Shown here: positions 52,503 to 64,000 of the stretch, in pieces
How the letters are laid out: every line of letters begins with the position of its first letter
Position numbering within the stretch: the stretch's first letter is position 1
Assembly: GCF_003325375.1 (NCBI RefSeq)
Contig: NZ_CP030862.1
Span: forward strand, 623,501 to 687,500
Direction: 5' to 3'
From: Streptomyces globosus
Lineage (GTDB): Bacteria; Actinomycetota; Actinomycetes; Streptomycetales; Streptomycetaceae
DNA length: 64,000 nucleotides
Notes under the pieces: generated by a model
What the model saw: the letters and a program-made list of their open reading frames with translations, nothing else
Told to the model about the DNA's origin: nothing
Databases searched by the model: none
Made by a program: the position numbers and the translations under genes

Positions 52503-54128
52503 GTGGAACAGCAGACAGGTGCGGGCGCAGTGCTCGCCGGCCGGTACCGGCTCGTGGAGCCCATCGGCAGCGGCGGCATGGGCAAGGTGTGGCGCGCCCA
52601 CGACGACCTCCTGAGCAGGACCGTCGCCGTCAAGGAGCTGACGGCCGGGCTGTACGTCGCCCAGGCGGACCGGGACGTCCTGCACGCCCGGACGCAGAAG
52701 GAGGCCCGCGCGGCCGCCCGCATCCAGCACCCGGCCGTCGTCACCGTCCACGACGTCTTCGAGCACGACGACCGGCCGTGGATCGTCATGGAGTACGTCG
52801 ACGGCCCGTCCCTCGCCGAGGCGGCCAAGGCGGCCGGCCGGATCGAGCCCCGCGAGGCCGCCCGGATCGGGCTGCACGTCCTCGGCGCGCTGCGCGCCGC
52901 GCACGCGGTCGGCGTGCTGCACCGGGACGTCAAGCCCGGCAACGTGCTGCTCGCCAGGGACGGGCGGGTGCTGCTCACGGACTTCGGGATCGCCGCGATC
53001 GAGGGCGACTCCTCCATCACCCGCACGGGCGAGATCGTCGGCTCCATCGACTACCTGGCCCCGGAGCGCGTCACGGGCGGCACCCCGGACCCGGCGTCCG
53101 ACCTGTGGTCGCTCGGGGCGACCCTCTACACGGCGGTCGAGGCCCGCTCGCCGTTCCGCCGCACCTCGCCGATCTCCAGCCTGCAGGCCGTCGTCAACGA
53201 CGAGCCGCCCGCGCTGCGCCAGTCCGGTCCGCTGGGGCCCGTCATCACCGCGCTGCTGCGCAAGGACCCCGAGGAGCGGCCCTCCGCGCAGGAGACGGAG
53301 CGGATGCTGCTGGAGGTGATGGAGGGCCGCGAGCCGAGGGCGGCGCAGGCGTACGTGCCGACGCGCGCGGTGAGCCCGCAGGAGCTGTCCGGGGCGCGGG
53401 AGGCCGAACCGGAGGCCCCCGCGGCGAGCGGCGCGGGAGGGACGGCCGCCCTGCCGGCCGGTCCGGCGGAGCCGGCCGAGAGGCCCCGCTCCAGCGCCGG
53501 CCGGGTCAGGCGGGCCGCGGCGGTGGCGCTGGTGGCGGCGCTGGTCGGCGGCGGCGCGGTCTTCGGGCTGCTGAAGTACACCGGCGACGGGGTCGGCGGC
53601 GACGGCGCCGACCGCAACGCGAGTGCCCCCGACCGGCAGGGCGGCGCCGGGGACAAGGACGCCAAGGACGCCTCCCCGCCCGCGGGCTGGAAGGAGGTCA
53701 CCGACCCGGAGGGCTTCACCCTGTGGGTGCCGGACGGCTGGAAGCGGCAGATGGACGGCAACCAGATCGACTACACACCGGACAACGGCAGGCACTTCAT
53801 CCGCATCGCCGTCGACCCCACGCCCGACTACGACACCGCGTACGCGCACGTGCTCGACCTGGAGAAGCAGGTCAGCCGGCGCACCGACTACAAGCGGCAG
53901 CGGCTGAACCAGAACACCTTCCGCGACACCACCCGCGCGGCGCTGTGGGAGTTCACCTGGACCGAGAAGGGCGTCCACGCCGGACCGCGCCGCGCCATCG
54001 AGCAGATGTACATCGCCCCGGACGGCACCGAGTACGCGGTGTACATGTCGGGCCCGACGTCCACCTGGGAGACGACCCGGGCGCAGTTCGACACCGTGCT
54101 CAAGGGCTGGGCGCCGCCCGCCGGCTGA
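52503..54128 (+). CDS. membrane Ser/Thr protein kinase, third gene of the cluster
   Basis: A 541-residue kinase. The kinase domain (about 14-275) is complete: GSGGMGKV, AVKEL, HRDVKPGNVLL (His ~140), TDFGIA, SIDYLAPERVTGG and DLWSLGATLY. One transmembrane helix follows (about 336-357), then a Asp/Gly/Lys-rich linker and a ~145-residue external domain beginning PAGWKEVTDPEGFTLWVP that resembles the ends of the two preceding proteins. GTG 52503 is chosen where kinase homology begins; GTG 52491 is possible. TAATCT (52468-52473) could be its -10. Confidence 0.9.
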   Translation: MEQQTGAGAVLAGRYRLVEPIGSGGMGKVWRAHDDLLSRTVAVKELTAGLYVAQADRDVLHARTQKEARAAARIQHPAVVTVHDVFEHDDRPWIVMEYVDGPSLAEAAKAAGRIEPREAARIGLHVLGALRAAHAVGVLHRDVKPGNVLLARDGRVLLTDFGIAAIEGDSSITRTGEIVGSIDYLAPERVTGGTPDPASDLWSLGATLYTAVEARSPFRRTSPISSLQAVVNDEPPALRQSGPLGPVITALLRKDPEERPSAQETERMLLEVMEGREPRAAQAYVPTRAVSPQELSGAREAEPEAPAASGAGGTAALPAGPAEPAERPRSSAGRVRRAAAVALVAALVGGGAVFGLLKYTGDGVGGDGADRNASAPDRQGGAGDKDAKDASPPAGWKEVTDPEGFTLWVPDGWKRQMDGNQIDYTPDNGRHFIRIAVDPTPDYDTAYAHVLDLEKQVSRRTDYKRQRLNQNTFRDTTRAALWEFTWTEKGVHAGPRRAIEQMYIAPDGTEYAVYMSGPTSTWETTRAQFDTVLKGWAPPAG

Positions 54129-54167
54129 GGCCGCTGCCGCCCCGCCGGCCGCGGGCGCGGCCATCCT

Positions 54168-54183
54168 GCCAGTGATCGCTGGC
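54168..54183. promoter_or_regulatory. inverted repeat upstream of the aldehyde dehydrogenase gene
   Basis: GCCAG-N6-CTGGC, nearly palindromic through its GATC centre, lies 65 bases before the ATG in a comparatively AT-rich patch (54175-54200). It is a candidate operator; no matching regulator is adjacent. Confidence 0.35.
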
Positions 54184-54248
54184 GGATATGGCAAAATCCG
54201 GTTACCGACGGGTACCCAAAGGGGTCCGGGCGCAATACGCTCACCGCC

Positions 54249-55877
54249 ATGACGGACTCGCCGGCCACCGCCCTCCTCCGCCCTGCCCCGCAGCCCACCA
54301 ACCCGGTCGCCCCGGCCCCCGCCGGCGCGCGCACCGCCGCGGACGTGGTGACCCCCGACCTGGTCGCCCGCCTCACCCGCGGCGTCATCGGGTCCGGGCG
54401 GACCGCGAACCACACGCCGTTCACCGGGGCCAAGCTCGCCGACCTCCCCGAGGCCACCCCGGCCGAGGTCGCCGAGGCGTTCGCGCGGGCCCGTACCGCC
54501 CAGGCCGCCTGGGCCGCCGTGCCCGTACGCCGCCGCGCCGCCGTCCTGCTCCGCTTCCACGACCTGGTCCTCGCCCGCCAGGCCGAGGTCCTCGACCTGA
54601 TCCAGCTGGAGACCGGCAAGGCCCGGCTGCACGCCCACGAGGAGGTCCAGGCCGTCGCCGTCGCCGCCCGCCACTACGGCCGCAAGGCGCCCGCCTACCT
54701 GCGGCCGCGCAGCCACACCGGCGCGATGCCGACCCTCACCAAGGTCACCGAGCTGCGCCAGCCGCGCGGCGTGGTCGGCCAGATCGCCCCCTGGAACTAC
54801 CCCCTCGAACTCTCCGTCGGCGACGCCCTGCCCGCCTTCGCCTCCGGCAACGCCGTCGTCATGAAGCCCGACACCGAGACCGCGCTGACCGCCCTGTGGG
54901 CACGCGACGTGCTCGTCGAGGCAGGGCTGCCCCCCGAGATCTTCCAGGTCGTCCTCGGCGAGGGCCCCGTCGTCGGCCCCGAGGTGGTCCGGCACGCCGA
55001 CTACGTCTCCTTCACCGGCTCCACCCGCACCGGCCGCGAGGTCGCGCAGGGCGCCGCCGCCCGCCTCGTCGGCGTCTCCCTCGAACTCGGCGGCAAGAAC
55101 GCCATGCTCGTCCTCCACGACGCCGACGTCGAGAAGGCCGCCGCCGGCGCCGTCCGCGCCTGCTTCTCCTCCGCCGGCCAGCTGTGCATCTCCATCGAGC
55201 GGCTCTACGTCCACGCCTCCATAGCCGACGAGTTCCTCGCCCGGTTCGCCGCCCGCACCAAGGCCATGCGCCTGGGCAGCTCCCTCGCCTACGGCGCGGA
55301 CATGGGCTCGCTGGTCGGCGAGCGCCAGCTGGAGACCGTCCGCCGGCACGTCGACGAGGCCGTCGCCAAGGGCGCCACCCTCGTCGCCGGCGGCACCGCC
55401 CGCCCCGACATCGGCCCGCTGTTCTACGAGCCGACCATCCTCGACGGCGTGGAGGCGCCGATGGCCGTCTGCGGCGAGGAGACCTTCGGCCCGGTCGTCT
55501 CCGTCTACCGCTTCACCGACGAGGACGAGGCCGTCGCCCAGGCCAACGCCACCCCCTACGGCCTCAACTCCAGCGTGTGGACGAAGGACGCCCGCCGCGG
55601 CCGCGCCGTCGCCGCCCGCCTGCGCACCGGCACCGTCAACATCAACGAGGGCTACGCCCCGGCCTACGGCAGCGTCCGGGCCCCCATGGGCGGCATGAAG
55701 GACTCCGGCCTCGGCCGCCGGCACGGCTCCGAGGGCATCCTCAAGTACACCGAGGCGCAGACGGTCGCCCACCAGCGGCTGCTGCCGATGGCGCCCTCGC
55801 TCGGCATGGACGACGAGGCGTACGCGGCGTTCATGACGCGCAGCCTCCGGCTGATGAAGGCCCTCCGCCTCCGCTAG
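54249..55877 (+). CDS. gabD: succinate-semialdehyde dehydrogenase-like (NAD(P)+) aldehyde dehydrogenase
   Basis: A 542-residue ALDH. The first ~35 residues are variable. GQIAPWNYPLELSVGDALPA, FTGSTRTGREVAQ, catalytic Glu in LELGGKNAM and catalytic Cys in SSAGQLCIS are intact, and EETFGPVVSVYRF is conserved. Overall pattern is that of the actinobacterial GabD2-type enzyme, converting succinate semialdehyde to succinate, but related aldehydes cannot be excluded. The GMC oxidoreductase gene follows 64 bases later. Confidence 0.85.
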   Translation: MTDSPATALLRPAPQPTNPVAPAPAGARTAADVVTPDLVARLTRGVIGSGRTANHTPFTGAKLADLPEATPAEVAEAFARARTAQAAWAAVPVRRRAAVLLRFHDLVLARQAEVLDLIQLETGKARLHAHEEVQAVAVAARHYGRKAPAYLRPRSHTGAMPTLTKVTELRQPRGVVGQIAPWNYPLELSVGDALPAFASGNAVVMKPDTETALTALWARDVLVEAGLPPEIFQVVLGEGPVVGPEVVRHADYVSFTGSTRTGREVAQGAAARLVGVSLELGGKNAMLVLHDADVEKAAAGAVRACFSSAGQLCISIERLYVHASIADEFLARFAARTKAMRLGSSLAYGADMGSLVGERQLETVRRHVDEAVAKGATLVAGGTARPDIGPLFYEPTILDGVEAPMAVCGEETFGPVVSVYRFTDEDEAVAQANATPYGLNSSVWTKDARRGRAVAARLRTGTVNINEGYAPAYGSVRAPMGGMKDSGLGRRHGSEGILKYTEAQTVAHQRLLPMAPSLGMDDEAYAAFMTRSLRLMKALRLR

Positions 55878-55941
55878 TGCCGCGGCCGCCCCGACCCGCC
55901 CCGCCCCCGCCCCGTCCCGCGGCCGCCAAGGAGGCGCCCCA

Positions 55942-57744
55942 GTGTCAGAGCCGTACGACTACGACGTCATCGTCATCGGATCCGGCTTCGGAGGCTCCGT
56001 CTCGGCGCTGCGCCTGGCCGAGAAGGGCTACCGGGTCGGCGTCCTGGAGGCGGGGCGCCGCTTCACCCGCGAGACCCTCCCGCGCAACAGCTGGGACCTG
56101 CGGGGCTACCTGTGGGCGCCGGCGCTCGGCCTGTACGGCATCCAGCGGATCCACCTCCTCGGCAACGTGATGGTGCTGGCCGGGGCCGGCGTCGGCGGCG
56201 GCTCCCTCAACTACGCCAACACCCTGTACGTGCCGCCCACCGCCTTCTTCGAGGACCGGCAGTGGGCGCACATCACGGACTGGCGCGAGGAGCTGGCCCC
56301 GTACTACGAGCAGGCCAAGCGGATGCTCGGGGTGCGGCTCAACCCGACGACGACCGCCTCCGACGTCCACCTGAAGGCCGTCGCCGAGAAGATGGGCGTC
56401 GGGGACACCTTCCACATGGCGCCGGTCGGCGTCTTCTTCGGCGACGGCGCCGACGCCGGCGGCACCGCCGCGGCCCGGCCCGGCCAGGAGGTCCCCGACC
56501 CGTACTTCGGCGGGGCCGGCCCCGCACGCCGGGCCTGCACCGAGTGCGGCGAGTGCATGACCGGCTGCCGGCACGGCGCGAAGAACACCCTCACCGAGAA
56601 CTACCTCCACCTCGCCGAGCGCGCCGGCGCCGTCATCCACCCCATGACGACCGTCACCGCCGTCGCCGAGCACCCGGACGGCGGCCACCGCGTCCGCACC
56701 GTCCCCACCGACGCCCGCCGCCGCGGCACCTCCCGGGAGCTGCGCGCCCGGTACGTGGTCGTCGCCGCCGGCACGTACGGCACCCAGACCCTGCTGCACC
56801 GGATGAAGGACACCGGGCTGCTCCCGCGGATCTCCGACCGCCTCGGCGAACTGACCCGCACCAACTCCGAGGGGCTCGTCGGCGCGCAGACCGACGACCG
56901 CCGCTACCGCAGGCGCCACGGCCCCGGCCGGCGCGCCGACTTCACCCGCGGCGTCGCCATCACCTCCTCCGTCCACCCGGACGCGGACACCCACATCGAG
57001 CCCGTCCGCTACGGCCGCGGCTCGAACGCGATGGGCTTCCTGACCGTGCTCCAGGTGCCCTACGGCCCGCACCGCGTGCGCGGCTGGCTCGCCCGGACCG
57101 CGAAGCACCCGGTGCAGCTGCTGCGCTCGCTCTCCAACCGGCGCTGGTCGGAGCGGACCATCATCGGGCTGGTCATGCAGTCCGTCGACAACTCGCTGAC
57201 GACGTACCGCAAGCCCCGCGGACTCGGCAGGGGCCTGCTCACGGCCCGCCAGGGGCACGGCGCCCCCAACCCGGTGCAGATCGAGGCGGCCACCCGGGCC
57301 GCCTCCCTGCTCGCCGAGGAGATAGGCGGCTTCGCCGGCAGCAACGTCGGCGAGCTCATGGGCACGCCGCTGACGGCGCACTTCCTCGGCGGCTGCCCGA
57401 TCGGCGCCACCGCCGAGGAGGGCGTCGTCGACCCGTACCACCGGCTGTACGGGCACCCGGGCATCCTCGTCGTGGACGGCGCGGCTGTCTCCGCGAACCT
57501 CGGGGTGAACCCCTCGCTGACGATCACGGCGCAGGCCGAGCGGGCGATGGCGTACTGGCCGAACAAGGGCGAGCCGGACGCCCGCCCCGAGCAGGGCGCG
57601 GCGTACGTGCGGCTCGCGCCGGTGGAGCCGGTCCGCCCGGCCGTGCCCGAGGAGGCCTTCGGCGCGCTGCGGCTGCCGCTCCTCCCGGTGCCCGGGGTCC
57701 CGCCGCGCCGCCCCGGGGCGGCGGCCGAGCTGCGGGCCGACTGA
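55942..57744 (+). CDS. GMC-type FAD oxidoreductase (cholesterol-oxidase-like)
   Basis: A 600-residue flavoprotein starting at GTG behind AAGGAGG. FAD motif VIVIGSGFGGSVSALRLAEKG, GAGVGGGSLNYANTLY and C-terminal VDGAAVSANLGVNPSLTI are GMC hallmarks. A cysteine-rich insert, ACTECGECMTGCRHGAKN, has four closely spaced cysteines found in one branch of the family and could bind a metal or cluster. Probably oxidises an alcohol; its partner may be the upstream aldehyde dehydrogenase. No Tat signal is visible. Confidence 0.87.
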   Translation: MSEPYDYDVIVIGSGFGGSVSALRLAEKGYRVGVLEAGRRFTRETLPRNSWDLRGYLWAPALGLYGIQRIHLLGNVMVLAGAGVGGGSLNYANTLYVPPTAFFEDRQWAHITDWREELAPYYEQAKRMLGVRLNPTTTASDVHLKAVAEKMGVGDTFHMAPVGVFFGDGADAGGTAAARPGQEVPDPYFGGAGPARRACTECGECMTGCRHGAKNTLTENYLHLAERAGAVIHPMTTVTAVAEHPDGGHRVRTVPTDARRRGTSRELRARYVVVAAGTYGTQTLLHRMKDTGLLPRISDRLGELTRTNSEGLVGAQTDDRRYRRRHGPGRRADFTRGVAITSSVHPDADTHIEPVRYGRGSNAMGFLTVLQVPYGPHRVRGWLARTAKHPVQLLRSLSNRRWSERTIIGLVMQSVDNSLTTYRKPRGLGRGLLTARQGHGAPNPVQIEAATRAASLLAEEIGGFAGSNVGELMGTPLTAHFLGGCPIGATAEEGVVDPYHRLYGHPGILVVDGAAVSANLGVNPSLTITAQAERAMAYWPNKGEPDARPEQGAAYVRLAPVEPVRPAVPEEAFGALRLPLLPVPGVPPRRPGAAAELRAD

Positions 57745-57746
57745 TA

Positions 57747-57791
57747 CGCGGCGGGTACCGCGCTCCCCCTCCGAGCGCGGTACCCGCCGCG
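57747..57791 (+). terminator. terminator after the GMC oxidoreductase gene
   Basis: A perfect 18-bp stem with arms 57747-57764 and 57774-57791 and a 9-base pyrimidine-rich loop begins two bases after the stop codon. Confidence 0.85.
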
Positions 57792-57875
57792 GTACCTAGG
57801 TGACAGGCGCTCGCCCCCGAAGGTTGTACCCGCGGGGCGCCGGCATGCGTGTGTGCTCGGTCACACGGTGAAGCC

Positions 57876-57933
57876 GGGGTGCGAGGGGCCGGCGGGGCGG
57901 GTGGGGCGGGCGGGGGAGGGGGCGGGGGAAGGG
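57876..57933 (+). other. G-run tract with G-quadruplex potential
   Basis: Ten runs of three to five G in 58 bases, mostly separated by one or two bases, on the + strand. The denser half (57894-57933) easily meets the G3+N1-7 pattern twice over. Confidence 0.6.
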
Positions 57934-57946
57934 CGCGGGTACGCGA

Positions 57947-57980
57947 ACGGCCGGCCCGGGGCGTCCCCCGGGCCGGCCGT
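57947..57980. terminator. second hairpin in the convergent gap
   Basis: A perfect 15-bp stem with arms 57947-57961 and 57966-57980 and a CGTC loop. It may terminate transcription from the chorismate mutase side. Confidence 0.6.
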
Positions 57981-58197
57981 CGTCGGTGTGACCGGCCTGC
58001 TGTCCCCTGCCGTCCGGTCACGCGAAGGAGCGAGGTCCCACGACGCACGTCCCACGGGTCGTACGCCTCATCGCTCCGGCGGAGCCACGCGTGGTGCTGG
58101 ACCCGCGCCTGGCTGACGCGGCCACCCACACCAACGAAGGTCCGCCGGGCCGGTCACGGGCCGGACGGGTGACGAACAGGCGGCTGGAGGGGCCGCC

Positions 58198-58500
58198 TCA
58201 GACCCGGCCGCGGCACAGCTCCAGCAGCGTCATGGCGAGGGCGGTGCCGGGCTTGCCGAGGGCGTCGCTCCAGTGCGACAGCACCTCCATCTCCCGCGAC
58301 AGGTGCACGCGGCGGCCGCCGGAGGCGATCCGGGCCTCCTGGATGACGGTCGAGACGGCCATCCGCTCCTGGATCAGGCCGATGATCCGGTCGTCGATGG
58401 CGTCGATGCGGTCGCGGGACGCCGCGATCAGCTGCTCGGGGTCCGCGTCCGCGGCGGAGGCGGCGGGGGACACGGCGGTGGCGGTGGCGGTGGCGGTCAT
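58198..58500 (-). CDS. chorismate mutase (AroQ type)
   Basis: A 100-residue all-helical AroQ protein converting chorismate to prephenate on the way to Phe and Tyr. SRDRIDAIDDRIIGLIQERMAV contains the first-helix Arg and the Asp/Arg pairs, and VIQEARIASGGRRVHLSREMEVL the second-helix residues. The first ~20 residues are an Ala/Thr tail. AGGAGAC precedes the ATG. It is preceded by a short reading frame with Phe and Tyr codons and a terminator-like stem, suggesting attenuation. Confidence 0.92.
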   Translation of the reverse strand: MTATATATAVSPAASAADADPEQLIAASRDRIDAIDDRIIGLIQERMAVSTVIQEARIASGGRRVHLSREMEVLSHWSDALGKPGTALAMTLLELCRGRV

Positions 58501-58545
58501 GGCGGGGGTCTCCTGTCGGTAGGGGCCCGCAGGACCGTGGAAACG

Positions 58546-58583
58546 CCGCAGCGCCCGGGTCCTGCCGGACCGGGGCGCTGCGG
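58546..58583 (-). terminator. attenuator-like hairpin before chorismate mutase
   Basis: An 11-bp stem (58546-58556 with 58573-58583), a one-base mismatch, then an inner 5-bp stem (58558-58562 with 58567-58571) around a TGCC loop. On the minus strand the stem is followed by CGTTTCC. It lies 24 bases after the leader-peptide stop and 45 before the mutase ATG. Confidence 0.65.
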
Positions 58584-58607
58584 GAAGTCAGGTGCTCTGC
58601 GCGAGCA

Positions 58608-58676
58608 TCACGAGGACCCATGGCTGCCGGACCGTCCGGTGCCATAGGTAAAGAGGAAGCTCAGCTGCCTGCGCAC
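58608..58676 (-). CDS. putative Phe/Tyr leader peptide of chorismate mutase
   Basis: A 22-codon reading frame on the minus strand, GTG start, peptide VRRQLSFLFTYGTGRSGSHG then SS. Within five codons it has Phe, Leu, Phe, Thr, Tyr, the end products made through chorismate mutase. It has no ribosome binding site, but AATAAT lies seven bases upstream, consistent with leaderless translation. The frame is followed by a terminator-like stem. This is the architecture of ribosome-mediated attenuation, though not proven. Confidence 0.55.
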   Translation of the reverse strand: MRRQLSFLFTYGTGRSGSHGSS

Positions 58677-58683
58677 GAACCGG

Positions 58684-58713
58684 ATTATTGCCGCGCCGGC
58701 CGCCCGGGGCCAA
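58684..58713 (-). promoter_or_regulatory. promoter of the chorismate mutase leader
   Basis: On the minus strand TTGGCC (58713-58708), an 18-base spacer and AATAAT (58689-58684) form a reasonable principal-sigma promoter. The start point would fall on or beside the leader-peptide GTG at 58676. Confidence 0.55.
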
Positions 58714-58757
58714 ACCGGTTCGGATGGTGAGACGAAAACGGCCCGCGCGTCCCCCGT

Positions 58758-58763
58758 TAGAAT
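58758..58763 (+). promoter_or_regulatory. -10 element of guaA
   Basis: TAGAAT, 39 bases before the guaA GTG, is a good -10. The -35 about 18 bases upstream (GAAAAC region) is weak. Confidence 0.45.
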
Positions 58764-58802
58764 TGACAAAACAGCCCCCTCTTCCGCCGGAAGGCCGCCC
58801 CC

Positions 58803-60395
58803 GTGCCAGAAGCACCCTCCGCCGCCCACGACAGCGCCCCGGACACGGTTCTCGTCGTCGACTTCGGCGCCCAGTACGCCCAGCTCATCGCCCGCCGCGT
58901 CCGCGAGGCACGGGTCTACAGCGAGATCGTCCCGAGCACGATGCCCGTGGCCGAGATGCTGGCCAAGGACCCCAAGGCGATCATCCTGTCCGGCGGCCCG
59001 TCCTCGGTGTACGAGGAGGGCGCCCCGCAGCTGGACCGCTCGCTCTTCGAGGCCGGCGTCCCCGTCTTCGGCATGTGCTACGGCTTCCAGCTGATGGCGA
59101 CCGCCCTCGGCGGCACCGTCGACAACACCGGCGCCCGCGAGTACGGCCGCACCCCGCTGAGCGTCAGCAAGACCGGCTCGACCCTCTTCGAGGGCACTCC
59201 CGCAGAGCAGTCGGTGTGGATGTCCCACGGCGACGCCTGCTCCGCCGCCCCCGCGGGCTTCACCGTCACCGCCTCGACCGACGTCGTGCCCGTCGCCGCG
59301 TTCGAGAACGACGAGAAGAAGCTGTACGGCGTGCAGTACCACCCCGAGGTGATGCACTCCACGCACGGCCAGCAGGTCCTGGAGCACTTCCTCTACCGCG
59401 GCGCCGGCCTCAAGCCCACCTGGACCACCGGCAACATCGTCGAGGAGCAGGTCGCGGCCATCAAGGCGCAGGTCGGCGACAAGCGCGCCATCTGCGGCCT
59501 CTCCGGCGGCGTGGACTCCGCGGTCGCCGCGGCCCTCGTCCAGAAGGCCATCGGCTCCCAGCTGACCTGCGTGTACGTCGACCACGGCCTGATGCGCAAG
59601 GGCGAGACCGAGCAGGTCGAGAAGGACTTCGTCGCCGCGACCGGCGTCCAGCTGAAGGTCGTCGACGCGCAGGAGCGCTTCCTCGCGGCCCTCGCCGGCG
59701 TCTCCGACCCCGAGACCAAGCGGAAGATCATCGGCCGCGAGTTCATCCGGGTCTTCGAGCAGGCGCAGGCCGAGATCATCGCCGAGGCCGAGGGCGGCCC
59801 CGAGGTGGCCTTCCTCGTCCAGGGCACCCTCTACCCGGACGTCGTGGAGTCCGGCGGCGGCACCGGCACCGCCAACATCAAGTCCCACCACAACGTGGGC
59901 GGCCTCCCCGACGACATCGAGTTCCAGCTCGTCGAGCCGCTGCGCCAGCTGTTCAAGGACGAGGTCCGCATGGTCGGCCAGGAGCTCGGCCTGCCCGACG
60001 AGATCGTCCACCGCCAGCCCTTCCCCGGCCCCGGCCTCGGCATCCGCATCGTCGGCGAGGTCACCAGGGACCGCCTGGACCTGCTCCGCGAGGCCGACGC
60101 CATCGCCCGCGAGGAGCTCACCGCCGCCGGCCTCGACCGCGAGATCTGGCAGTGCCCCGTCGTGCTCCTGGCGGACGTCCGCAGCGTCGGCGTCCAGGGC
60201 GACGGCCGCACCTACGGCCACCCGATCGTGCTGCGCCCCGTCTCCTCCGAGGACGCCATGACCGCGGACTGGACGCGCATGCCGTACGAGGTGCTCGCCC
60301 GGATCTCCACCCGCATCACCAACGAGGTCAAGGACGTCAACCGCGTCGTCCTGGACTGCACCAGCAAGCCGCCGGGCACCATCGAGTGGGAGTGA
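58803..60395 (+). CDS. guaA: GMP synthase (glutamine-hydrolysing)
   Basis: A 530-residue enzyme making GMP from XMP. The class I glutaminase half has [28 protein letters not shown], nucleophile Cys in FGMCYGFQL and the YHPEVMHS His/Glu. The ATP-pyrophosphatase half has the [12 protein letters not shown] loop, and the C-terminal dimerisation domain ends [11 protein letters not shown] start. It completes the GMP pathway begun by guaB upstream. Confidence 0.98.
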
Positions 60396-60426
60396 TCCCG
60401 CCGCCGGCCCCGCGCCGCACGTGAGA

Positions 60427-60462
60427 CGGAGCCGCCGCCCCCGCCCGGGGCCGGCGGCTCCG
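60427..60462 (+). terminator. terminator after guaA
   Basis: An 11-bp CGGAGCCGCCG/CGGCGGCTCCG stem (60427-60437 with 60452-60462) followed by CCGTTTCG. Confidence 0.75.
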
Positions 60463-60579
60463 CCGTTTCGCCGGCATCCGCCCGCGCCCGCCGCCCTGCC
60501 CCTGGCCACTTGCGGGCCGCGCGGGTACCGTGCGCGCGCCGGCCCCGCGGCCGGCCGACGCCGACCGAGGAGGGCCGCG

Positions 60580-61347
60580 ATGCCGGACCAGCCCCCACCC
60601 GTGCCCGTGGACCGGCTCCGCTTCGAGATGCCGCCCGTCCACGACGAACCCGACCGGGAGCGCGCCCACCGCAAGGAGCGGCTCGCCGGGGCGCTGCGCC
60701 TGCTCGCGCGGCTCGGCTTCGAGGAGGACCCGGCCGCGCTGGCCACCGCCCGCGACCCCGAGCACCCGGACTGCCTGTGGGTGAACCCCTTCGGGAGGGC
60801 GGCGACCGCCCTCACCGCCGGGGACCTGCTCCTCGTCGACGCCGACGGGCGCGTCCTGGAGGGCGGGCGCCGCGTCAACGGGCTCTCCTTCGCCCTCCAC
60901 GCAGCCGTCCACCGGGCCCGGCCCGACGCGGTCGCCGTGGTCCGCGCGCACGGCCCGTACGGCAGGGCGCTCGCCGCGCTCGGGCAGCTGATCGCCCCCC
61001 TCACCCAGGAGGCCTGCGCCTTCTACCAGGACCACGCCCTCGTCGACGAGTACACCCGCGGCGCCGCCGATCCCGCCGAGTGCGCCCGCATCGCCCGCGC
61101 GCTCGGCCCGTACAAGGCGCTCGTCCTGCGCAACCACGGGGTGCTCACCGTCGGCACCACCGTGGACGCCGCCGCCTGGTGGACCGTCGCCGCCGAGCGG
61201 GCCGCCCGCGTCCAGCTCACCGCCCGCGCCGCCGGCCGCCCCGCGCCCATCGGACACCGCAGCGCCCTCGCCGCGCGCGACCGGTTCGGCACCGACCTCG
61301 CCGCCTGGGCCGCCTACCAGCCGCTGCGGGAGTCCGCCGCGCCCTGA
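60580..61347 (+). CDS. class II aldolase/adducin family protein
   Basis: A 255-residue protein behind GAGGAGGG. The fold has LWVNPFG, the LLLVDADGRVLEG segment, HAAVHRARPDAVAVVRAHG with the metal-binding histidines, and LRNHGVLTVG with the third. The catalytic glutamate region is ACAFYQDHALV. The substrate (sugar phosphate or other carbonyl compound) cannot be told. It is a single gene between guaA and a membrane-protein gene. Confidence 0.87.
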   Translation: MPDQPPPVPVDRLRFEMPPVHDEPDRERAHRKERLAGALRLLARLGFEEDPAALATARDPEHPDCLWVNPFGRAATALTAGDLLLVDADGRVLEGGRRVNGLSFALHAAVHRARPDAVAVVRAHGPYGRALAALGQLIAPLTQEACAFYQDHALVDEYTRGAADPAECARIARALGPYKALVLRNHGVLTVGTTVDAAAWWTVAAERAARVQLTARAAGRPAPIGHRSALAARDRFGTDLAAWAAYQPLRESAAP

Positions 61348-61408
61348 CACCCGTACGCCGCCCGGGTGACGTCAACATCATGAACGGACAATCACCTGCT
61401 CTGACATC

Positions 61409-61445
61409 GTGCGCAATCCGGAGCACTGCCGCAGTGGTGCACAAT
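61409..61445. promoter_or_regulatory. compound repeat upstream of the membrane-protein gene
   Basis: GTGCGCAAT (61409-61417) and GTGCACAAT (61437-61445) are near-identical direct repeats. They flank a perfect CACTGC-C-GCAGTG inverted repeat (61424-61436). The group lies 41 bases before the GTG start and may be an operator. Confidence 0.4.
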
Positions 61446-61485
61446 TCGCTGGCATCGCACCGTAGTTCAGAGAGGCGGCAGGCAC

Positions 61486-62751
61486 GTGGCTGTCCAACAG
61501 ATCTCCCGAAGCACCCACGGCGGCGCATGCACCTGCGACGACTGCCCGCACGGCGCGCAGGAGGGGCACCGCCGCGCGGTCGCGGCGTTCCTGGAGAAGC
61601 GGGACGCGTTCGCCGCAGGCCACGGACTGCCCGCCGCGGTCGCCCGGTCCGCCGGCGCGTCCCGGCAGTGGGTCTCCGACGAACTCGCCCTCTCCGCCCG
61701 CACGGCCGCCGACCGGGGCCGCGAGGCGGGCAGCTCCTGGCTGCACGTCTTCTCCCGGCGGGCCGTCCTCGCCGTGTGGATCGCCGCCGGGATCCTCCTC
61801 GTCGTCCAGGTCGGCACCGCCCTCGGCACCGGCTGGTCGCCCGCGCGCACCGCCGCCCTCCTCGCGGCGGCCTTCCTCGCCGGGCTGCTCACCCTCGCCG
61901 CCCGCGCCCAGCCGGTGCGCGGCGGGCTGCTGGCCCCGCTGGTCGGCGAGGACAACCGGCTGTCCACCTCGAAGGCCGTACCCGCGGCCTGGCTGCTGCT
62001 GACCGCGTTCGCCGGGCTGCTGCCCGCGCTGCGGCTGGCCGCCTCCGCGCCCGGCCCGGAGCGGCAGGCGCTGTACGAGGGCCTCGGGCTGGTGCGGACG
62101 CTGCCGCTGCTGTCGATCGTCGCGCTGACCTCGGCGGTGGCGGTGCTGGTGCGCCGCGTCGTCGCCGTGCGGATCCTCGGCCAGCGGCTGCAGAAGCTGC
62201 CCGCGGACCGGCCGCGCGGCGCCGACCTGCTCACGGACGACGCCGGCCGGGGCAGCCTGCCCGACGCCCAGTACGTCCTGGTCTCGACGGTGGTGCTGGC
62301 GTACGCGGCCGTGTCGCTGGCCCGGTTCCCGGACCGGCTGCCGCGGCTGCCGTGGGCGCTGGCCCTGCTCGTCGCCCTGTCGGCGGCGGTGTACCTGGCC
62401 GCGAAGTCCGCGGAGGTGACCCGGCCGCTCGTGCTGTCCGTGGTCCGCAGACGCGAGCCCGGAGACCTGGACGCGGCCGTCCGGCCCGGCGACGACATCG
62501 AGATCCGCGGGGTGGGCTTCGTCCCGCCCGGGGCGCAGACCCCGGAGATGCTGGCCCGGCTGGTGGTCCGGATCGGGGCGGTCCACGTGCACGTGCCGCT
62601 GGTTCCGGTGGCGGGCGGGTTCGCGAACCCGTCGGACACGGCCCTGACGGTGCCGGTCCCGGCCGAAGTGGAACCGGGCCGGGTCGAGGTGCAGGTGGTC
62701 ACGGCCGCCGGGGTGGAATCCAACCGCTGCACCATCGACGTCGCCGAGTGA
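61486..62751 (+). CDS. polytopic membrane protein of unknown function
   Basis: A 421-residue protein. The N-terminus has a cysteine motif (CTCDDCPHG) and a soluble helical segment to about residue 85. About six hydrophobic helices follow between 90 and 310 (for example AVLAVWIAAGILLVVQVG and LPWALALLVALSAAVYLAA). The C-terminal ~110 residues form a soluble beta-rich domain (IEIRGVGFVPPGAQTPEML, then VEVQVVTAAGVESNRCTIDV) reminiscent of an IPT/TIG fold. DoxX gene follows 19 bases later, so the two are probably co-transcribed. Confidence 0.78.
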   Translation: MAVQQISRSTHGGACTCDDCPHGAQEGHRRAVAAFLEKRDAFAAGHGLPAAVARSAGASRQWVSDELALSARTAADRGREAGSSWLHVFSRRAVLAVWIAAGILLVVQVGTALGTGWSPARTAALLAAAFLAGLLTLAARAQPVRGGLLAPLVGEDNRLSTSKAVPAAWLLLTAFAGLLPALRLAASAPGPERQALYEGLGLVRTLPLLSIVALTSAVAVLVRRVVAVRILGQRLQKLPADRPRGADLLTDDAGRGSLPDAQYVLVSTVVLAYAAVSLARFPDRLPRLPWALALLVALSAAVYLAAKSAEVTRPLVLSVVRRREPGDLDAAVRPGDDIEIRGVGFVPPGAQTPEMLARLVVRIGAVHVHVPLVPVAGGFANPSDTALTVPVPAEVEPGRVEVQVVTAAGVESNRCTIDVAE

Positions 62752-62770
62752 AGCGGGTAGACATGGGGGC

Positions 62771-63361
62771 GTGACCCGAACAGACGACCCCGCCGCGTAC
62801 GGGGACCACGAGCCGGGCGAGGCCGCCGACCGGGCCCCCGCCGCCCACCGCGGCGCCCCCGCCCCCGGACTGCGGGACCGGGCCGCCCGGTACGCGCTGC
62901 TGCCGCTGCGGATCTTCCTCGGCGCGACCTTCGTCTACGCGGGCCTGGACAAGCTGACCGACCCCGCCTTCCTGTCCGCCTCCGGCACCGGCTCCATCGG
63001 CGAGCTGATGCGCGGGGTGCGCGACACCTCCGCCGTCCCGGCGCTGGTGGACCTGGCCCTGCGCTCGCCCGTCGCCTTCGCCCTGGCCATCGCCGTCGGC
63101 GAGATCCTGGTGGGCCTCGGTGTCCTCGCCGGCCTCCTGACCCGCCTCGCGGCCCTCGGCGGCCTGCTGATCTCGCTCAGCCTGTGGCTCACGGTGTCCT
63201 GGCAGGTCGCCCCGTACTACTACGGAAACGATCTCGCCTACCTGATGGCGTGGACGCCGCTGGTGCTCGCCGGGGCGCCCTACTGGTCGGCGGACTCGCT
63301 GATCCGGTCCGCCCGGTCCGGGGGGCCGGCCAGACTGCGGCGGTCGCGGCGCACCGCGTAG
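62771..63361 (+). CDS. DoxX family membrane protein
   Basis: A 196-residue protein with a ~35-residue hydrophilic N-terminus and four transmembrane helices. PLRIFLGATFVYAGLDKLTDPAF is the DoxX entry motif and AIAVGEILVGLGVLAGLLTRLAAL then APYYYGNDLAYLMAWTPLVLAG complete the pattern. DoxX proteins are linked to redox and thiol stress or quinone chemistry. The 3' end overlaps the antisense small membrane-protein gene by 82 bases. Confidence 0.85.
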   Translation: MTRTDDPAAYGDHEPGEAADRAPAAHRGAPAPGLRDRAARYALLPLRIFLGATFVYAGLDKLTDPAFLSASGTGSIGELMRGVRDTSAVPALVDLALRSPVAFALAIAVGEILVGLGVLAGLLTRLAALGGLLISLSLWLTVSWQVAPYYYGNDLAYLMAWTPLVLAGAPYWSADSLIRSARSGGPARLRRSRRTA

Positions 63362-63531
63362 GCCACCAGCCCCACCAGCGCGGCCAGCGTCAGGCCGCCG
63401 GCCGCCATCGGGACCACCAGGAACCACGGGGTGTCGATCTCGCCCGCCGCGTCGAGCAGGTAGAGCGCGCCCGCCGCGGTCAGGACGAGGCCGGCCAGGA
63501 ACCGGCCCGGCTGGAACTCATGACGTCGCAC
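63280..63531 (-). CDS. small two-helix membrane protein
   Basis: An 83-residue protein starting at GTG with AGGTGGAGG upstream. Two hydrophobic helices (FLAGLVLTAAGALYLLDAAG and VVPMAAGGLTLAALVGLVAY) precede a charged cytoplasmic tail. It overlaps the end of the upstream PspC-type gene by 14 bases, so is translationally coupled with it and probably works with it in the membrane. Its 3' end is antisense to the DoxX gene. Confidence 0.72.
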   Translation of the reverse strand: MRRHEFQPGRFLAGLVLTAAGALYLLDAAGEIDTPWFLVVPMAAGGLTLAALVGLVAYAVRRDRRSLAGPPDRADRISESADQ

Positions 63532-64000
63532 GGGCCACCTCCACCTGTCCCACACCCGCTTCGAGGTGCAGCTCCACCGTTCCGCCGGCCTCCGTGCCGT
63601 CGGCCGGCGCCACCGTCTCCCGCCGGGTCTCGCCCTCGCCCCGGATGCGCACGTACGAGCGGGTGTCGTCCGGCATCCGGATGTCGCCCAGCCGTACGGA
63701 GGCCTCCGCGCGGGCGGTGACCTCGCGGGGCACGATCACCTTCAGCAGCCCGGCGTCGATGCCGGCGCGCACGGTCAGCGTGCTGCCCTCCGGCACGTCG
63801 AGCCGGCTGAGGTCCAGGGTGGCGATGCCGGTGCCGGACTCGTACACCGGCTGCACGTCGGCCACCGCCGCGGGCCGCCAGCGCACGTCCCGCCAGTCGG
63901 TGCCGATCTCCGCGGGCAGCGCCGCCGACGCCGCCAGCAGCCCGGCCGTGGCCAGGGCCAGCAGGATCGTCCCGAAGCCCGTACGGCCGCGGAACGAGCT
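63518..64000 (-). CDS. PspC-type membrane protein, C-terminal part
   Basis: Partial: the gene starts beyond the window. The visible 160 residues begin in a linker (RGRTGFG), have one transmembrane helix (TILLALATAGLLAASAALP) and then a beta-helical domain (TLDLSRLDVPEGSTLTV, AGLLKVIVPREV, VRLGDIRM) like the DUF4097/LiaF-type C-terminus of actinobacterial PspC proteins, which sense or respond to envelope stress. Assignment rests on the C-terminal half only. Confidence 0.7.
   Translation of the reverse strand, partial: SSFRGRTGFGTILLALATAGLLAASAALPAEIGTDWRDVRWRPAAVADVQPVYESGTGIATLDLSRLDVPEGSTLTVRAGIDAGLLKVIVPREVTARAEASVRLGDIRMPDDTRSYVRIRGEGETRRETVAPADGTEAGGTVELHLEAGVGQVEVARATS

Follow-up and report, generated by a model that had tools for sequence, protein, structure and literature searches.

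The short leader that precedes a chorismate mutase gene of Streptomyces globosus very probably acts as a transcription attenuator of the ribosome-mediated kind known from trp and pheA, sensing the supply of Phe and Tyr, the two amino acids to which chorismate mutase directs chorismate. The parts of this system, namely a leader-peptide frame with conserved control codons, two hairpins (1:2 and 3:4) and the link to the same gene, can be read from the sequence and its comparison among relatives, while a third, antiterminating pairing (2:3) is supported by statistics. From these parts, we infer a leaderless start, termination ahead of the gene and a response to Phe and Tyr. A Phe/Tyr attenuator had been proposed in the initial annotation of this DNA, and the in-frame conservation of the codons, compensatory changes in the terminator stem and an antiterminator that tracks the terminator across genera all lend support to that sequence-based reading. 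The coordinates of the features are collected in Table 1.

Table 1. The chorismate mutase leader and its surroundings. Positions refer to the window, i.e. the whole 64,000-nucleotide stretch of S. globosus DNA that was analyzed.
Feature	Position	Strand	Details
Promoter	58684-58713	-	-35-like TTGGCC 58713-58708, 18 nt spacer, -10 AATAAT 58689-58684
Leader-peptide ORF, probably leaderless	58608-58676	-	VRRQLSFLFTYGTGRSGSHGSS, 22 codons plus TGA (58608), GTG start 58676; position and frame conserved
Control codons	58644-58658	-	TTC-CTC-TTT-ACC-TAT (Phe7, Phe9, Tyr11); most conserved part of the region
Hairpin 1:2	58616-58649	-	ACCUAUGGC with GCCAUGGGU, inner CCGGA/UCCGG; -21.2 kcal/mol, z -4.2
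Segment 2 (antiterminator 2:3, pairs with terminator 5′ arm)	58627-58639	-	read from the sequence
Terminator-like hairpin 3:4	58539-58583	-	58583-58567 with 58562-58546, loop GGCA, tail CGUUUCC 58545-58539
Shine-Dalgarno AGGAG of chorismate mutase gene	58510-58514	-	read from the sequence; outside the terminator
Chorismate mutase gene	58198-58500	-	100 aa; PF01817, PRK07857; homologous to M. tuberculosis Rv0948c
guaA (GMP synthase), divergent gene	58803-60395

Promoter, leader peptide and control codons

TTGGCC-N18-AATAAT is the only promoter-like match in 2.3 kb (shuffled sequences gave 0.0). The promoter noted earlier is present, but its two halves differ in standing: 108 of 109 Streptomyces loci keep the -10 box at 6-7 nt from the start codon, whereas the -35 box matches weakly and lies in a region as variable as the flank. 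Majority-base conservation is 0.57 upstream of -45, compared with 0.95 over codons 7-11 and 0.90 in the terminator. In the window, 7 nt separate the -10 box from the GTG start codon, and in S. lividans transcription starts on average 6.3 nt after the -10 hexamer (PMC8079986). This agreement in spacing makes it likely that the leader mRNA is leaderless, starting at or very near GTG 58676. Across the 109 Streptomyces loci, the leader starts with ATG (102) or GTG (7).

The 22-codon frame with Phe-Leu-Phe-Thr-Tyr, also described in the initial annotation, carries its aromatic residues at F7, F9 and Y11, and its frame is conserved. The number of codons ahead of TTT-ACC-TAT is 8, 9 or 10 in Streptomyces leaders, so that the length varies by whole codons only. 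In the C-terminal part of the peptide, the frame or stop is shifted at four loci (L023, L033, L055 and L069) whose nucleotide sequence remains similar there, which suggests that this part is kept as RNA.

The choice of codons at the control site is nearly fixed. TTT serves as the last Phe codon in 161 of 164 leaders from the family, and TAT encodes the Tyr in 163; TTC accounts for 178 of the 181 other Phe codons in these leaders. These control codons are rare in six genes of the window (TTT 1/57, TAT 0/56). As UUU falls outside the stem of hairpin 1:2 and UAU lies partly inside it, the use of UUU may reflect slow decoding, to which RNA pairing may be added in the case of UAU. Two family members (L140 and L143) have the leader Tyr codon replaced (FSHG, FTQG) and retain the hairpins; this loss of Tyr counts against the attenuator reading.

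Hairpins, proposed antiterminator and probable output

Hairpin 1:2, which was absent from the initial annotation, begins at the Thr10-Tyr11 codons and thereby overlaps the control codons. In a 34-sequence family alignment, 94.4% of its cells are paired and the sequence is near-invariant, meaning that the hairpin is conserved rather than covarying. The long GC-rich stem that had been noted before the chorismate mutase gene corresponds to the terminator-like hairpin 3:4 (58583-58546), which has 16 bp with one C-C mismatch (-36.5 kcal/mol, z -6.2) and ends 45 nt ahead of the ATG. In the same alignment, 6 of its 14 pairs show changes on both sides. Taken jointly, helices 1:2 and 3:4 hold 31 double-change cells against 6.8 in shuffled controls (0/500), nearly all of them in the terminator. 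The leader as a whole also folds better than all 200 of its shuffles (z -5.0).

For the antiterminator, the window offers two options: CCGGAC (58639-58634) with GUCCGG (58570-58565), or CGGUCCGG (58634-58627) with CCGGUCCG (58573-58566), an 8 nt pairing with one U-U mismatch. A point against the attenuator is that the 2:3 pairing of Streptomyces, that of the window included, uses a shifted register and is shortened or carries a mismatch. The window pairing is weaker than those of relatives, for example GGUCCGG/CCGGACC (L116), GAGCCCGG/CCGGGCUC (L153), GGACUCCGG/CCGGAGUCC (L234) and GGGAGUCCGG/CCGGGCUCCC (L233). Within the family alignment, the excess of pairing is modest (84.5% paired versus 82.2% shuffled, 9/500). 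Comparison for an alternative antiterminator pairing, as proposed in the initial annotation, gives a clearer signal when terminators are swapped between loci, a test that only partly removes shared ancestry: across 34 lineage representatives the 2:3 duplex reaches -18.95 kcal/mol versus -17.44 (sd 0.36) with swapped terminators (0/5000), and in 21 genera 3.19 of the 4 positions beyond the shared CCGG core are paired versus 2.64 when swapped (p 0.0003). Segment 2 thus tracks the terminator across genera. An extended pairing of codons 1-6 with the region after the stop codon in Streptomyces also exceeds permuted controls (-17.8 versus -16.7 kcal/mol, 0/5000) but, drawn from related sequences, counts as a side observation only.

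Together, these parts suggest the following course of events. A leaderless mRNA that starts at or very near GTG 58676 would be translated immediately. With ample Phe-tRNA and Tyr-tRNA, the ribosome would reach the stop codon and cover segment 2; without a ribosome, hairpin 1:2 would hold it. In either case, terminator 3:4 would form and RNA polymerase would stop near 58540. A shortage of Phe-tRNA or Tyr-tRNA, by contrast, would make the ribosome wait at UUU or UAU, directly on segment 1, so that segment 2 would be free to base-pair with the terminator's 5′ arm. This would block terminator 3:4, resulting in transcription of the chorismate mutase gene.

The same leader and the same stalling could instead act on translation of the chorismate mutase mRNA, or on Rho-dependent rather than intrinsic termination. 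We consider this unlikely, even if it is the strongest of the alternatives. In its favor, the U-run is short, with at least three U within the first 10 nt past the stem in 136 of 164 leaders, and the mycobacterial-like (L164) and family f18 (L162) loci have no clear U-tract after the stem. Mycobacterial polycysteine leaderless ORFs have, moreover, been cited as cysteine-responsive attenuators (Canestrari 2020, listed among the references of PMC9094748). On the other hand, the Shine-Dalgarno sequence in the window (58514-58510) lies outside the stem, ~30 nt past it, and Streptomycetaceae retain a stem of 14-17 bp together with a U-run, which argues for intrinsic termination. The output step may nevertheless differ in the mycobacterial-like and f18 loci, given the missing U-tract and given that the hairpin following the Phe/Tyr leader ORF is deleted or altered in two mycobacterial-like loci (L205 and L210). 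Automatic terminator picking failed at some loci of both groups, so that support for the output step is weak there. The two loci with a lost or altered hairpin could be naturally occurring variants in which chorismate mutase is controlled differently. In f18 loci (L159-L170 and L223-L242), the leader peptides are longer, at about 27-55 codons, and carry their aromatic codons close to the end (..FYG(G/D)RxRSPLxR); the output may be translational.

Distribution across Actinomycetes and the putatively regulated enzyme

The leader is found at 109 of the 110 Streptomyces loci with this chorismate mutase (the exception being a locus cut by a contig end), across Streptomycetaceae and in order-level relatives. 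In other Actinomycetes, the same gene is preceded at 50 of 60 loci by a leaderless ORF that contains an aromatic pair (F-x-Y-G or F-Y-G in most cases), compared with 1% in simulated sequence. Lack of conservation of the peptide or stem in relatives would, according to the initial annotation, have refuted its proposal; peptide and stem are instead kept, in frame and beside the same gene, well outside Streptomyces. The gene encodes an enzyme of the Rv0948c (AroQ-delta-like) type (PRK07857, 118.8 bits; TIGR01808 over the cut-off; 2qbv, 9.6e-13), and a locus whose enzyme is close to M. tuberculosis Rv0948c (L164) carries the leader VLDKRRFFYGYRSAVPVV.

An RNA model (R1) built from the 34-sequence family alignment (A1) matches 291 of 293 Streptomycetales genomes, some of these matches being weak and possibly terminator-only. 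In the two genomes without a match (G338 and G362), the sole chorismate mutase is a distant one (E about 1e-6), so that they appear to have lost the Rv0948c-type enzyme along with the leader. Such a distant enzyme (again E about 1e-6), common throughout the class, is likewise all that G254 and G247 carry, two further genomes of the family without the Rv0948c type. In the S. globosus genome, the leader is the only full-length strong match to R1; as candidates for further copies, the remaining matches were rejected as terminator fragments or weak.

The recurrence of an F-x-Y-G core across the class could also point to an arrest peptide, in which the nascent chain would respond to a small molecule rather than to charged tRNA, in the way TnaC responds to tryptophan. 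This is very improbable: the residues flanking the core vary freely, the C-terminus changes frame while the RNA is retained, Gly is absent in L156 and L158/L231, which suits a constraint on RNA rather than on peptide, and the bias for UUU and UAU is a feature of codons. That the stem, strong as it is, serves as a constitutive terminator or belongs to a short non-coding RNA ahead of the gene, the ORF being passive, is scarcely credible, as the aromatic codons stay in frame at a fixed place across the class and leader and gene are lost together.

Returning to the attenuator, we tentatively suggest, at somewhat less than even odds, that Phe/Tyr attenuation of AroQ-delta chorismate mutase is ancient and extends through the whole class Actinomycetes, mycobacteria included, with the near-obligate, rare UUU and UAU codons sharpening the stalling. 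For Rv0948c, a complex with DAHP synthase is established, and in Actinomycetes its type of chorismate mutase is a partner of that enzyme. If the suggestion is true, the attenuator would, through a complex of this kind, set entry into the whole aromatic pathway in addition to the Phe/Tyr branch. A conserved attenuator would offer a direct handle on engineering the aromatic compounds from which antibiotics are made and, in mycobacteria, a regulator open to testing.

Comparison with known systems

Covariance models of Rfam (amino-acid leader, T-box and riboswitch families) gave no match at the leader itself, within window positions 54000-64000 or at five related loci, with E-values up to 1 considered. 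In a 2005 survey of Actinobacteria (PMC1262725), no phenylalanine or tyrosine gene or operon was reported to have a conserved RNA regulatory structure, and a list of eight leaders in S. lividans includes none for Phe/Tyr or chorismate mutase (PMC8079986). A search of openly licensed papers yielded no earlier description of this leader, which may nevertheless have been reported elsewhere. No Phe/Tyr leader was found near the DAHP synthase genes of S. globosus, nor ahead of the matched genes at DAHP synthase and prephenate dehydratase loci. At a prephenate dehydratase locus (L194, +2771), a short ORF, MLGFTPFPGMAGFYRARSGRRLPATGTEFSIRCN, contains five aromatic residues and follows a hexamer similar to a -10 box; it is positioned past the start of the matched gene and is probably due to chance. 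A further leaderless ORF, MYAHSCRSWWWTAPGGPLLARTH, adjoins the type II DAHP synthase gene of S. globosus on the opposite strand (L191, +2954, near C1:5326422); as it resembles the known Streptomyces trpL1 peptide, it serves as a positive control for the scan for leaderless ORFs.

With the Streptomyces leaders trpL1-trpE and trpL2-trpS (PMC8079986, PMC1262725), the chorismate mutase leader shares a leaderless peptide, GC-rich hairpins and, for trpL1, a biosynthetic target, but those leaders carry Trp codons instead of Phe and Tyr codons. The initial annotation had noted known aromatic attenuators in actinobacteria for trp genes, a remark that is incomplete. In C. glutamicum, the aroR leader (Phe-Tyr-Phe) precedes aroF, a DAHP synthase gene, and is reported to respond to Phe limitation (Neshat et al. 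2014, as described in PMC4046766 and PMC11802643). As an actinobacterial leader with aromatic codons before a gene of aromatic biosynthesis, aroR-aroF is the closest known system in logic; compared by description only, it differs in controlling DAHP synthase, whereas the S. globosus leader precedes chorismate mutase. In E. coli pheL-pheA (Zurawski 1978, as cited in PMC11802643), Phe codons precede a chorismate mutase function and the logic of terminator and antiterminator is the one proposed here. The E. coli chorismate mutase, however, is fused to prephenate dehydratase and belongs to a different phylum and protein family, and the S. globosus leader departs from pheL by its predicted leaderless translation, its combination of Phe and Tyr codons and a control site made of the rare UUU and UAU.
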